Origin: Ectothiorhodospira shaposhnikovii
Lineage (GTDB): Bacteria > Pseudomonadota > Gammaproteobacteria > Ectothiorhodospirales > Ectothiorhodospiraceae
Direction of reading: 5' to 3'
DNA: 64,000 bases
Assembly: GCF_022227765.1 (NCBI RefSeq)
Contig: NZ_JAJMLZ010000005.1
Location: 62,001-126,000 of the forward strand
Shown here: positions 50,197-55,345 of the stretch, piece after piece
Layout: every line of letters begins with the position of its first letter
Position numbering within the stretch: position 1 is the first letter of the stretch
Notes under the pieces: generated by a model
Database searches by the model: none
The model's input: the letters and a program-made list of their open reading frames with translations, nothing else
Told to the model about the DNA's origin: nothing
Made by a program: the position numbers and the translations under genes

Positions 50197-50955
50197 ATGA
50201 CGTTCGGTACTGAAGAGATCCTCATCGGCCTGCTGGTCACTCTGATCGCCGGCCTGGTCCACGGCGCCTTCGGGCTGGGTTTCCCGATGATCGCCACCCC
50301 CATCCTGGCGCTGATCACCGACGTCAAGACGGCCATTCTGCTCACCCTGGCCCCCAATATCGCAGTCAACGTCTGGAGCCTGATCCGGGGCGGCAACTGG
50401 CTCGGCAGTGTGGCCCGTTTCTGGCCGGTGGCGGTATGGATGCTGGTGGGATCGGCCCTGGGCACCCTGGTGCTGGTGGCCATGGACCCTAATCCCTTCC
50501 GTCTGCTGCTGGCCGCCACGGTGGTGCTCTACCTGATGTCCGACCGCATCAAACGCATCGACTGGAGTTGGATCGGCCGCCATCCCCGTCCCAGCGGTGC
50601 CGGGGCCGGTCTGCTGGGAGGCCTGCTGGGGGGGACCGTGAACGTGGGCGGCCCGGTGATGATGATCTATTTCCTGGAACTGCGACTGGCCCCCGTGGTC
50701 CTCGTCCAGGCCATCAACCTGTGCTTCCTGCTGGGCAAGGGGACCCAGGCCATCACCTTTGCCTTCCTCGGCATGCTGGGACTGGACCTGCTGCTGATTT
50801 CCCTGCCCCTGGGCATCGCCGCCCTGATCGGACTGCGCGGGGGTATGTGGATCCGGGAGCGGGTGGCCGCGGACACCTATCGGGGCTGGCTCAAGGGTCT
50901 GCTGTGGATCCTGTGCATCCTGCTGGTGGTGCAGTTCTTCCGTGAACTGGGATGA
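50197..50955 (+). CDS. TSUP family (TauE/SafE) membrane transporter
   Basis: A 252-residue permease with about eight hydrophobic segments and the family marks LIAGLVHGAFGLGFPMIATPIL and GLLGGLLGGTVNVGGPVMMIYFLE. TSUP proteins export or import sulfite, sulfonates or other organic acids. It follows the DUF1028 gene on the same strand. The substrate is unknown. Confidence 0.9.
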   Translation: MTFGTEEILIGLLVTLIAGLVHGAFGLGFPMIATPILALITDVKTAILLTLAPNIAVNVWSLIRGGNWLGSVARFWPVAVWMLVGSALGTLVLVAMDPNPFRLLLAATVVLYLMSDRIKRIDWSWIGRHPRPSGAGAGLLGGLLGGTVNVGGPVMMIYFLELRLAPVVLVQAINLCFLLGKGTQAITFAFLGMLGLDLLLISLPLGIAALIGLRGGMWIRERVAADTYRGWLKGLLWILCILLVVQFFRELG

Positions 50956-51012
50956 CGGCGGGACGGTCCCGGAAGCGACAGGCAACCCGCTCCGGGACCA
51001 TCGTGACGCGGA

Positions 51013-51489
51013 TCAGGCCTTTTCCTGATCCTTTTTGGCGGACATATCCTTGAGTTCCTGCAGCAATTCCCGGAAACGCTGATCCAGTCGCTCCATGGCC
51101 GCTTCCTGGGCCAGTCGCATGGATTCAAAGGTCTCCCGGGTATGGCTGCTCATGCGATCGTAGACCTTGCCCACCATTTCCACCTGTCTGGCCGGCAACT
51201 CGTCCTGTTTTGCCTCCCCCATGGCACGGGTCATCTCCGTGGCCTCATTCATTGCCTGGCTCAGCACCTCCGTCTGACGCTTCATCAGGGCCTCGCTGCT
51301 TTCCATCATCGCCCGGTTGGCGGCCATCATGGCCTCCACGTTCTTCTTTTGTACTTCCATCAATGCGGACATATCCATGTGCGGGATCTTGAACTGCTTC
51401 ATGAACTCGTTCATCTGATCCATGTAGCGCTGAGGATCCATCAGTTTCATCAGTTCGGACATGTCGAACGGATTTTTCTCTTGCGGCAT
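51013..51489 (-). CDS. Phasin-like protein
   Basis: A 158-residue all-helical, Met- and Gln-rich protein with an amphipathic pattern: an N-terminal motif PFDMSELMKLMDPQRYMDQM, long helices (VQKKNVEAMMAANRAMMESSEALMKRQTEVLSQAM) and a Lys/Glu-rich tail. This matches the phasin family that coats polyhydroxyalkanoate granules, though no pha genes are in the window. Just beyond its start is the AT-rich DnaA-box region. Confidence 0.75.
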   Translation of the reverse strand: MPQEKNPFDMSELMKLMDPQRYMDQMNEFMKQFKIPHMDMSALMEVQKKNVEAMMAANRAMMESSEALMKRQTEVLSQAMNEATEMTRAMGEAKQDELPARQVEMVGKVYDRMSSHTRETFESMRLAQEAAMERLDQRFRELLQELKDMSAKKDQEKA

Positions 51490-51630
51490 GGCTGCGATCT
51501 CCTTCTCTGGTTACAGGGGAATACGGGATTGATCCTCCAGTGGTAGAGCTTAGTCCAATGGACAGGACTCGCCTGCGCACGGGCCCCCATTTTCAAGGAA
51601 ATACAGGCTATCATCAGCCCGTGACAACCC

Positions 51631-51862
51631 TGTGGATAAACTGTTTCGAAACCGTGGGTAAGATTTTCCCACAGATTTATCCACAATCCTCGCACAATTT
51701 CCCGTTAGGTTACCCGCAGATTTCCTCACATGTTGAAATGTGAATAACGTGTTGAAATTAAAAATTTTTAAAATTCTTTTCCCCAGGCGAGGCGTCCCCT
51801 TATTACAGTCATTAAAAAGATTTTAAAAAGATAGTCATCATACAGAAACCGCGTCATCCACA
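51631..51862. other. oriC-like cluster of DnaA boxes and AT-rich DNA
   Basis: DnaA boxes: TGTGGATAA at 51631-51639 and TTATCCACA at 51677-51685 (exact, opposite orientation), TGTGAATAA at 51739-51747 (fits TTATNCACA), TCATCCACA at 51854-51862 (one mismatch), with a weaker TTTCCCACA at 51665. Two AT-rich stretches, about 51751-51780 and 51811-51835, could be unwinding elements. A short TCACAT...ATGTGA palindrome lies at 51726-51743. It is the best origin candidate in the window, about 10.6 kb from dnaA. No gene is encoded here. Confidence 0.6.
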
Positions 51863-51864
51863 GC

Positions 51865-52038
51865 TCAGGTGCCGTTTTGGGTAATGCGATTCGCCTGCAG
51901 GCGGATGGTTTCCGCTTCAATCCGGACCTCGCGCCCCTGGATCACCAGATCACCGTTGGCATCGATCAAAATGCAGGCCCTGTCGTCACCGATACGTATC
52001 CCCCCGGCCGTGGTTTTCCACAACATGTCCCCCGCGAC
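51865..52038 (-). pseudogene. 3' remnant of a spike-like beta-repeat protein gene
   Basis: Leftward frame, TGA at 51865-51867, open back to the IscB element. The last ~53 residues read as regular beta repeats (WKTTAGGIRIGDD, ILIDANGDLVIQG, VRIEAETIRLQANRI), like the C-terminal needle of phage or type VI spike/DUF6484-type proteins. A 53-residue version could start at ATG 52026, but no ribosome site is seen; more likely it is the tail of a longer gene cut by the mobile element. The other part is not visible beyond 53.7 kb. Confidence 0.45.
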
Positions 52039-52039
52039 G

Positions 52040-52321
52040 TCAACTACCCCCGCCTGAAGGCCGGAGCTTGTGAAAGCAGGCTGGGTTGACCAGGGAAAGC
52101 GGTGAAAACCCGCTACGTTTGCAACAGGTCGTCAAGACCCACCGGCGGATGCTTCCTCAGTCCGCCGCTCTGGAAGGTTGGGATCATGCTGGTGAAAGGT
52201 AAAGCGCCGAAGGTTCCAGCCGCCGCGAAAGCGGGAGCCGGTTGCAGACATTCCCGAGGGGAGATGGGGCGCAAGCCCTACGTCACCGGACCCGTAAGGG
52301 TTCTGTTTTGGGAGGTTTGAA
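52040..52321 (+). ncRNA. omega RNA (HEARO-type guide RNA) of the IscB element
   Basis: The 240-280 bases before iscB are rich in nested hairpins: AGCGG/CCGCT (52098-52114), GGCGGA/TCCGCC (52144-52166), CGC-GAAA-GCG (52223-52234), GGGC-GCAA-GCCC (52267-52278) and ACCC-GTAA-GGGT (52289-52300), with GNRA-like loops. Position directly 5' of iscB and this density of stems match the known omega RNA. The guide should lie at its 5' end, taken from DNA just outside the left end. The 5' boundary is uncertain (52040-52080). Confidence 0.8.
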
Positions 52322-53653
52322 ATGGCGGTTTTGGTACTGGACAAGAGGAAAAAGCCCCTGATGCCCTGCCCGGAGAAACGGGCACGGTTGCTATTGGAGC
52401 GGGGCCGGGCCGTGGTCCACCGGATGCGCCCGTTCACCATCCGGCTCAAGGATCGTGCGGTGGAAGAATCCGTGCTGCAACCGATCCAGATCAAGATTGA
52501 CCCCGGCAGCAAGACCACCGGAGTCACGGTGATCCGCGAGGACGTCGCCAATCCGGAGCAGCAGCAGGTACTGATGCTGATGGAGATCGAGCATCGCGGC
52601 CAACAGATCCGTGAAAATTTGACCCAGCGCCGGGCCTTTCGTCGGCGGCGCCGGAATCAGTTACGCCACCGGGCGCCCCGGTTCGACAACCGGACCCCAC
52701 CCCAAGGCCAGCTGGCCCCCAGTCTGCAACATCGAGTGGACACCACGATGGCCTGGGTGAACCGATTGTGCCGGCTGGCCCCGGTGACGGGGATCACCAT
52801 GGAGCGGGTTCGGTTCGATATGCAGATTATGGAAAATCCAGAAATCAGCGGCGTTGAATACCAGCAGGGCACCTTACAGGGCTATGAAGTGCGGGAATAC
52901 CTGTTGGAGAAGTGGCAACGCTGCTGCGCCTACTGTGGTGCGACACAGGTGCCCCTGGAAATTGATCACATTCACCCCAAAAGCCGGGGCGGTTCGGATC
53001 GGGTCAGCAATCTGACCCTGGCCTGTCGTGATTGCAATCAGGCCAAGGGGAATCAGCCCGTGGAAATTTTTCTGGCCGATGATCCCAAGCGCCTGCAACG
53101 GATCGAGGCCCAGGCCAAGGCACCCCTCAAGGATGCCGCCGCCGTCAACAGTACCCGCTGGGCACTGTTCCGACAGCTTCAGGCCACGGGCCTGCCCGTG
53201 ATCACCAGTAGTGGTGGCCGCACCAAATACAACCGACAGCGGTTGGGTGTCCCCAAGACCCACGCCCTGGACGCGGCCTGTGTCGGGCCAGTCACCGCCA
53301 TCACCCACTGGAATGTGCCCACATTGACGGTGCGGGCCACGGGCCGGGGCAGTTATCAGCGCACCCGGCTCAACCGTTTCGGCTTCCCCCGTGGCTACCT
53401 GATGCGCCAAAAGCAGGTGAAAGGCTTTCAGACCGGGGATCTGGTTCAGGCCAACGTACCGACCGGTAAAAAGGCCGGCACCTATCAGGGCCGGGTGGCC
53501 ATTCGCGCCACCGGTAGTTTCAATATCCAGACCCGAGAGGGTGTGGTTCAGGGCATTTCACACCGCCATTGCCGCCTGCTTCAAAGAGCCGATGGCTATG
53601 GCTATACCTTTCAACCCAAACCGATACAGGAGGACGCGACCAGGGCCGCGTGA
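52322..53653 (+). CDS. iscB: RNA-guided endonuclease IscB
   Basis: A 443-residue IscB. PLMP domain with KKPLMPCPEKRARLLLERGR (10-29); RuvC-I Asp60 in KIDPGSKTTGVTV; Arg-rich bridge helix (103-121); RuvC-II Glu161; HNH 198-245 with zinc Cys202/205/235/238 and catalytic DHIHP at 215-219; RuvC-III His314 and Asp317 in THALDAA; then a C-terminal TAM-interacting-like beta domain. Every catalytic residue is intact, so both strands should be cut. The ATG follows GGGAGG. IscB is the ancestor group of Cas9, guided by an omega RNA. Confidence 0.96.
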   Translation: MAVLVLDKRKKPLMPCPEKRARLLLERGRAVVHRMRPFTIRLKDRAVEESVLQPIQIKIDPGSKTTGVTVIREDVANPEQQQVLMLMEIEHRGQQIRENLTQRRAFRRRRRNQLRHRAPRFDNRTPPQGQLAPSLQHRVDTTMAWVNRLCRLAPVTGITMERVRFDMQIMENPEISGVEYQQGTLQGYEVREYLLEKWQRCCAYCGATQVPLEIDHIHPKSRGGSDRVSNLTLACRDCNQAKGNQPVEIFLADDPKRLQRIEAQAKAPLKDAAAVNSTRWALFRQLQATGLPVITSSGGRTKYNRQRLGVPKTHALDAACVGPVTAITHWNVPTLTVRATGRGSYQRTRLNRFGFPRGYLMRQKQVKGFQTGDLVQANVPTGKKAGTYQGRVAIRATGSFNIQTREGVVQGISHRHCRLLQRADGYGYTFQPKPIQEDATRAA

Positions 53654-53673
53654 TCGTGCTGTGCACGATGCGC

Positions 53674-53713
53674 TATCCCTCCCCGCCCTGAAGTTATGGG
53701 GTCTCTCGCGAAA
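53674..53713 (+). other. Right end of the IscB element
   Basis: CTATCCCTCCCCGCC-CTGAAGTTA-TGGGG then TCTCTCGCG is the hairpin-type right end common to IscB/TnpB elements; the stem is slightly degraded compared with usual copies. The next 175 bases to 53887 hold no gene that I can recognise. Confidence 0.55.
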
Positions 53714-53887
53714 TGAGCGGAAAGTGAGTCGTTGAGTCGGTGGAGAAGCCGTGTAGGTCACGGACTCCGCCTCTGAGAGGCTCGTAGCGAAGCGTTCTCG
53801 CCCCGTCGCCACCCGCCCTTACGGGAATGGTCCTGAATCACCAGCACGGGCTTCTCAGGCCCTGCTCGAAGCAAGTGACGCGCTCCT

Positions 53888-54349
53888 TCACGGATCTGGA
53901 TCTCCATCCATCGCCCTCACCTGCGCCTGGCTGATGACGTGCCCGTGTTCAGCGGCGCGGCGTATCCAGGCCATGCCTTCCTGCTCGTCCTTGTCCACGC
54001 CTTGCCCGGAGACGTAGCACCGACCCAGCCAGTGCATGGCGTCGGGGTACTCCTGCCGGGCCGCCAAGCGCAGCCAGTGGATGGCCAGGTCGTAGCGGTC
54101 GGCGTCCATCAGGATCAGGGCCACGTCGTTCTGGGCCTCGGCCTCGCCCTGGTCGGCACGGATGATCACCTCGTCATCCTCCGGCTGAAGAGCGGCGGGG
54201 ATGTCGGCCCGCACGGCCGCCAGGGGGATGCAGCCCCGATCCACGGCGTCACTGCGCTCCTGGCGGGGCATTTCAGTGGCCAGCCTGCGACGCAGGGATC
54301 GGCGGCTCAGGCCGGTGAGTCTTTCGGCGGTATCCAGGGAAATTTCCAT
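53888..54349 (-). CDS. Sel1-like repeat protein with N-terminal helix-turn-helix-like part
   Basis: A 153-residue protein. Residues 1-35 ([23 protein letters not shown]) look like a small DNA-binding helix-turn-helix. The rest has two or three Sel1/TPR-type helix pairs ([65 protein letters not shown]). It is divergent from pilA, with a pair of inverted repeats between. A role in pilin control is only suggested by position. Confidence 0.7.
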
Positions 54350-54367
54350 CCATCCCTCCGTTTCTAC

Positions 54368-54420
54368 GGCCGACTGTTTTTGTCGGCCATTCATTTCACG
54401 GCCGACCATTTTTGTCGGCC
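54368..54420. promoter_or_regulatory. Two tandem inverted repeats upstream of pilA
   Basis: GGCCGAC-(7 bases)-GTCGGCC occurs at 54368-54388 and again at 54400-54420, with start-to-start spacing of 32 bases, three helical turns. Both loops are T-rich and read TTTTTGTCGG, like a PilR-type enhancer site. They lie 80-130 bases before the sigma-54 promoter and just upstream of the Sel1-like gene start. Confidence 0.65.
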
Positions 54421-54496
54421 ATTTCTGGCGACGGCTCACAGACCGCCTATCCGGCGCAGGATACCATTTACGCTACGGCGGGCCGCTGTTGGATGT

Positions 54497-55023: not shown

Positions 55024-55345
55024 GTGCGCCCAGCATGAGCGCACACCTGTGGGTGTAAGTCCCGCCGTAAGTTGATCATAGCGAACGAAGTGAAGCGCAA
55101 CCGCATGAGGGTGACCGATCGTGGGGAGGAAGCGTGGAGCGTAAGCTGCGAACCGATGGACAAGAATCGGATAGAAGGCGCTGCCGGGCAGGGCGAGCAG
55201 GCAAGAGGCCGCAAAGCTCTCGTGATCAAGGCGAAGTGGCGTAAATCCGGCGGTTGTGCAGCGAAGGAGTGCGTTCTTACCTGGGGAGATCTCGCCTTAT
55301 GCCTGAAAAGGCGACGGTGCTGAACCGGAGCAAGAAGTCAGCAGA
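55024..55345 (+). mobile_element. Truncated group IIC intron (5' part only)
   Basis: Begins GTGCGCCCAGCATGAGCGCA and GGGTGTAAGTCCCG, the group II GUGYG 5' end and early domain I that closely follow the Oceanobacillus group IIC layout. Further on are the TTACCTGGGGAGATCT block and GAAGTCAGCAGA (55334-55345) that precede domain IV. Then similarity stops: no reverse transcriptase, domain V or VI. It sits right after a terminator hairpin, the known IIC target. It is non-autonomous and presumably cannot splice. 55346-55500 holds nothing recognised. Confidence 0.85.

Follow-up and report, generated by a model that had tools for sequence, protein, structure and literature searches.

A HEARO/IscB element family lying in front of ATGA, mostly at host start codons, with a right end that may serve as a new leader

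Can an IscB nuclease gene that stands beside its omega RNA, with no transposase next to it, still be part of a mobile element, and where does such an element settle? The question was raised by a locus in the window, i.e. the whole 64,000-nucleotide stretch of DNA analysed here, which a preliminary description had taken for a complete and apparently active IscB/omega RNA locus lacking TnpA.

The window locus: an intact nuclease and a decayed right end

The omega RNA predicted upstream of the nuclease gene was confirmed by the covariance model HEARO (RF02033), which matched positions 52039–52269 on the plus strand over its whole length (cmscan: model 1–211, 113.7 bits, E = 1e-22; gathering score, 83 bits). 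This segment, ending 52 bases before the iscB ORF, is also the left end of the element, with a GTCAACTACC hairpin, and is common to the copies on contigs C1 and C22 of the same genome. Directly 5′ of it, at 52023–52038 on the plus strand, lies the presumed guide, whose length we take to be 16 nt from published IscB work; it belongs to the 3′ portion of a vgrG-like gene that is broken and runs on the minus strand. The element extends from 52039 to 53712 (1674 bp), one base further to the left than the start at 52040 given earlier, and is followed by ATGA at 53713–53716.

The iscB gene at 52322–53653 (plus strand, start ATG) encodes 443 residues, an ordinary size for IscB, with PLMP, RuvC I–III and HNH parts. 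It scored 462.2 bits against the NCBIfam model NF040563 'RNA-guided endonuclease IscB' over profile positions 1–314 of 314 (cut-off, 175 bits), gave Pfam matches to RRXRR and HNH, and its motifs aligned with those of IscB chains in PDB. All catalytic residues named beforehand (D60, E161, DHIHP at 215–219, H314 and D317) were in place. Its dN/dS against six related IscB genes was 0.11–0.14, indicating that purifying selection has kept the protein. Judged from its sequence, the locus is a HEARO/IscB locus with an intact nuclease; as such it belongs to a known kind, and as a plain IscB locus it adds little.

The right end tells a different story about completeness. At 53674–53712 (plus strand), by comparison with the right ends of the C1 copy, of Ectothiorhodospira magna (E. 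magna) and of G007, the hairpin CCCCGCCC/TTATGGGG has decayed, and fewer terminal bases remain than in the sister copy on C1. The ATGA abutting it is not a gene start here, as only M-S-G-K-stop follows. The element lies antisense in the vgrG-like gene, of which the C-terminal part lies to its left and an inner piece to its right. The left flank (50689–52033, minus strand, including the last ~57 codons of the gene) is homologous to locus L045 of the related genome G004 (blastn, 81% over 1368 aligned positions), and the right flank (53759–53872, minus strand) matches L045:2615–2728 at 77% (blastn). Between the two matches, 1252 bp of G004 sequence are absent from the window. In G004, which has no HEARO match, the gene is whole (686 aa, gene call), and Pfam assigns it Phage_GPD (187 bits) and Phage_base_V. 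Thus the nuclease of the 'apparently active' locus does look intact, but the element as a whole is not complete, and we rejected the window copy as a perfect active element on account of its decayed right end and a host gene lacking ~1.2 kb. An exact placing of the right junction in vgrG was likewise rejected, since the 43 bp after the right end remained unaligned.

In G004 the left-flank homology continues directly with GTGA, a plausible TAM, so that the intact gene would match the guide. The nuclease may, as suggested earlier, retain its site by cutting empty copies, a reading consistent with the sequence. No perfect guide + RTGA target was found in the window's own genome; the nearest was the locus itself with one mismatch, followed by one site with two mismatches. 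The window copy may have arisen by recombination of two element copies, one at this GTGA and one further along the vgrG-like gene, with deletion of the intervening DNA. That the left flank stops exactly at the GTGA and that the 1252 bp are missing speak for such an origin, to which we give slightly less than even weight, because the 43 bp past the right end show no clear alignment and a simple one-sided deletion fits equally well. It is very improbable, in our view, that the window IscB has been domesticated for another host function and no longer belongs to a mobile element: the lack of TnpA in cis and the decayed right end would agree with this, but the same element, with its ends intact, lies at different genes on C1 and in E. 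magna. Beside the broken gene, a Sel1-repeat protein is encoded at 53888–54439 (minus strand), and a group II intron D1-D4-3 match lies at 55105–55276 (plus strand, 93.6 bits); the latter may be a remnant, since no reverse-transcriptase ORF was seen in the ORF list to 58 kb.

Relatives, transposase and placement in front of ATGA

A search for the same element elsewhere in the genome (G000, assigned to the genus Ectothiorhodospira from the closest named relatives, with the window on contig C35) gave three HEARO copies in all, namely that of the window, C1:466287–466517, whose IscB is 93% identical to the window IscB, and C22:62260–62523 (L003), which has no IscB. Among 144 genomes searched as relatives, including G000, HEARO matched at E ≤ 0.001 in 11 and above the cut-off in 5. 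Matches were numerous in E. magna (G003, 15), G013 (10) and Vreelandella rituensis (G144, 33). The 15 of E. magna comprise two with a near-complete iscB, three internally deleted, one with only the first codons before the contig end, and nine whose examined stretch contains no iscB (two lie at contig ends and one is a weak match); partial iscB genes at L024, L026 and L048 represent intermediates. In G013, iscB accompanies one HEARO and is missing from nine. Most of 30 Vreelandella and Marinobacter loci carry IscB, some partial and some distant, and the script pattern described below found the right end in none of the five IscB-less loci among them. At L181 and L194 of V. rituensis a high-scoring HEARO lies beside a far more distant IscB (32–35% identity), and hence two IscB lineages occur in one genome. 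Viral contigs searched for IscB relatives gave only two distant HNH matches.

Subterminal hairpins at both ends and the absence of target duplication were found for the family, as judged from right ends and empty sites; the window copy has a degraded hairpin on the right. As had been described, no TnpA (Y1) was seen in cis among the ORFs at 48–58 kb of the window. In G000, Y1_Tnp matched twice, once on C3 and once on C36, and not on C35. The C36 locus (L153, ~1450–1700) is a tnpA-tnpB remnant. Its left end abuts GTGA and, once reverse-complemented, is similar to the right end of the IscB elements, making the locus a possible source of transposase in trans; scanning the other 19 Y1 loci for shared ends gave no clear match and one doubtful pattern match (L156). 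G013 combines ten HEARO copies with no more than two Y1_Tnp matches, both weak, so it may have lost the transposase by which the copies spread.

Placement was analysed in 79 fetched IscB loci, of which 34, ten of them from V. rituensis alone, yielded both ends by a script whose pattern accepted ATGA or GTGA after the right end. These 34 loci held 35 IscB-sized elements, and ATGA abutted the right end in all 35. A site was counted as gene-start-like when, after the flanks were rejoined, the ATG opened at least 100 codons and an in-frame stop lay less than 50 codons upstream. This applied to 25/35 elements against 199/2316 control ATGA/GTGA sites from these loci (Fisher p = 7e-19). The p-values assume more independence than there is, given the kinship of elements within a genome, and because the control takes in sites inside genes, selection against disruption accounts for part of the excess. 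A Shine-Dalgarno 4-mer preceded the ATG of the rejoined empty site in 15/35 versus 161/2316 controls, and a 5-mer or longer in 10/35 versus 36/2316.

When the Ectothiorhodospiraceae set was taken together with G114, 20 of 27 elements were at a gene start (IscB-less, 13/16; IscB, 5/8; internally deleted, 2/3), with Pfam support for 18 of the 20 placements. The other seven were the window copy, L030, in which the start codon lies 4 nt further on, L032, which is inside a response-regulator gene and domain, L052, L158, L161 and L163.

Annotated plasmids allowed a comparison restricted to non-disrupting sites. From 52 plasmid records with a match, 12 stretches were taken, and ten of them, with 11 elements, were usable (L169 has no annotation and L175 no recognisable right end). 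A CDS start was annotated at the junction of 7/11 elements, either exactly at ATGA (L165, first copy of L166, L168 and L172) or at an in-frame ATG one codon earlier, within the element's own end (second copy of L166, L167 and L171); L164, L170, L173 and L174 had no annotated CDS start there. Non-disrupting ATGA/GTGA sites in the same ten stretches were annotated CDS starts in 30/340 cases, and binomial tests against this background gave p = 1e-5 for 7/11 and p = 0.012 for the four exact starts alone.

Short elements without IscB and their empty sites

Sixteen IscB-less elements, of which both ends were measured (G000, 1; G003, 6; G013, 9), are 380–457 bp long and have kept the omega RNA, and ATGA follows the right end in 16/16. 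In 14/16 the right end carries a Shine-Dalgarno motif 4–6 bases from the ATG, compared with 1/53 IscB-bearing copies (L174, plasmid; Fisher p = 1e-11, with copies related). These 53 ends comprise the 35 scripted ones, C1, two of G007, G114, G013, the window and 12 plasmid copies. The same holds within G013, where the IscB copy has no motif and 8/9 short copies have one at their right end. L003 (C22) is at a gene start yet misses the motif by one base, and L052 has neither an ORF at the junction nor the motif. Control of translation by the right-end hairpin was also considered, but the folds were no stronger than in shuffled sequence (z = −1.18 and −1.92; IscB-type end, −0.99).

Behind 11 of the 13 IscB-less elements at gene starts, a Pfam domain begins near the N-terminus: nucleotidyl transferase of the glgC type, GFO/IDH, TrkA, M3 peptidase, PEPCK, ABC transporter, pyrophosphatase, citrate synthase, anthranilate synthase, MCP sensor and PUCC. 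The remaining two are L022, without a Pfam match, and L013, which was outside the Pfam search.

Empty alleles were available for two of these genes. In glgC of G002 and G004, which have no HEARO, the sequence left of the C22 element runs directly into ATGAAA..., and the last 22 bases before the junction are identical to those of G000. In pckA of G000, which is empty, the left flank known from the E. magna element leads straight into ATGACTTTC..., and the 19 bases before the junction are identical. Both alleles indicate that insertion was exact, without target duplication and just 5′ of the start codon. Guide/TAM continuity holds in the rejoined glgC and pckA alleles, where a guide from one species finds its match beside ATGA in the empty allele of another. 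Short copies within a genome are 94–98% (21 pairs) or 87–98% (36 pairs) identical; this high identity, together with the empty sister sites, indicates recent mobility of the short copies.

A proposed mechanism and its relation to known systems

Reading the family from these sequences, we consider it probable that it inserts 5′ of ATGA, mostly at a host start codon, that its right end becomes the new leader, and that IscB may protect the short copies in trans. The window element would be a non-autonomous element of the IS200/IS605 type, composed of a left-end hairpin with the omega RNA, iscB and a right-end hairpin. Insertion would take place just 5′ of ATGA without target duplication; where, as appears to be so in most copies examined, the ATG is the host start codon, the element thereby separates the native ribosome-binding region from it. 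The native 5′ leader would then serve as the guide, and the start codon with the next base as the TAM. The requirement for ATGA on the right means that any insertion at a start codon points the same way as the host gene, and hence guide, scaffold and iscB could be transcribed from the host promoter in the correct orientation. The host gene would stay translatable because the right end acts as its new leader. In IscB-less copies the right end would supply the Shine-Dalgarno motif; five IscB copies, a minority (L166, L168, L172, L059 and L064), have an iscB stop codon that overlaps the start codon of the host gene, which could permit termination-reinitiation; in the remaining IscB copies no translation signal of the new leader was found. 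IscB produced by a few full copies could also act in trans: charged with the omega RNA of a short copy, it could cut the empty alleles, and each short copy would thereby protect its own site.

The placement could also result from ordinary targeting of ATGA/GTGA at random, followed by purifying selection that spares copies at gene starts, where the right end happens to do no harm. Integration of HEARO at ATGA/GTGA has reportedly been published, and control sites inside genes would be purged by selection, inflating the contrast of 25/35 with 199/2316. We regard this as a possible but rather doubtful account, because the excess persists among non-disrupting plasmid sites, both for all 7/11 insertions and for the exact 4/11, and because the Shine-Dalgarno motif in 14/16 short right ends suggests adaptation over mere tolerance. 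That motif, which is able to fold into a small hairpin, and the position of short copies 5′ of the core genes glgC, trkA, pckA, ppa, citrate synthase and trpE might instead mean that they have been domesticated as regulatory 5′ leaders of host genes and have lost mobility. This seems unlikely to us: the copies are too similar within each genome, glgC and pckA, the two sites checked, are both empty in sister species, and the hairpin does not go beyond shuffled sequence.

If insertion in front of start codons with a replacement leader is indeed how the family lives, this would account for the expression, after each jump, of a guide RNA and nuclease that lack a promoter of their own, namely by the promoter of the host gene, for the choice of ATGA as the target, and for the survival of cells with insertions before core metabolic genes. 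The element-bearing and empty alleles of glgC and pckA in sister species are natural pairs for testing IscB-driven retention in trans. We see an even chance that the proposal extends further, to HEARO/IscB as a class of start-codon mobile elements, in which the start codon and next base would be TAM and target, the displaced leader the guide and the right end the replacement leader, and in which short copies would have gained a Shine-Dalgarno motif in two genera, carrying a guide RNA invisibly before core genes and being defended in trans by IscB.

In a literature search we found no report of the start-codon rule or of the right-end Shine-Dalgarno motif; the founding papers (Weinberg 2009, Kapitonov 2016 and Altae-Tran 2021) were outside its reach, and the novelty of the rule is therefore provisional. 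IscB, HEARO, the scarcity of TnpA, the NTGA TAM of IsrB, standalone omega RNAs and the preference for ATGA/GTGA are already known. This preference was reportedly noted by Weinberg in 2009, and standalone omega RNAs working in trans with IscB are said to have been described by Altae-Tran in 2021. Short derivatives of IS200/IS605 elements of the MITE/PATE type are internally deleted and non-autonomous and keep both ends. The elements described here are likewise internally deleted and non-autonomous with both ends, and L024, L026 and L048 of E. magna represent intermediates; unlike MITE/PATE, the IscB-less elements have retained a guide RNA and bring a translation signal with them.

With the IscB/HEARO loci of IS200/IS605-like ISC elements, the window locus shares the IscB architecture, the HEARO upstream of the ORF, the lack of TnpA in cis and ATGA beside the right end; it differs in its degraded right end and its position in a broken gene, whereas its relatives are mostly at start codons. 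Few HEARO nucleases were found with TnpA, and 65% of their 5′ UTRs match RF02033, according to the part of the source consulted, in which placement at start codons did not come up (PMC9755519). In the consulted part of another paper, DtIsrB, the IsrB of Desulfovirgula, has the TAM NTGA and cuts with TTGA and ATGA (PMC9581776); this is similar to the putative ATGA/GTGA TAM here, although IsrB is without HNH and start-codon placement is not mentioned for it in that part (PMC9581776). The same portion also cites earlier work on standalone omega RNAs that act together with IscB in trans (PMC9581776), and the IscB-less loci resemble these in that they retain the omega RNA while an intact IscB is encoded elsewhere in the same genome. 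They differ in being defined elements of 380–457 bp with both ends, at start codons and with a Shine-Dalgarno motif in 14/16, and it is this motif and the start-codon rule that, as far as found and provisionally, are new.
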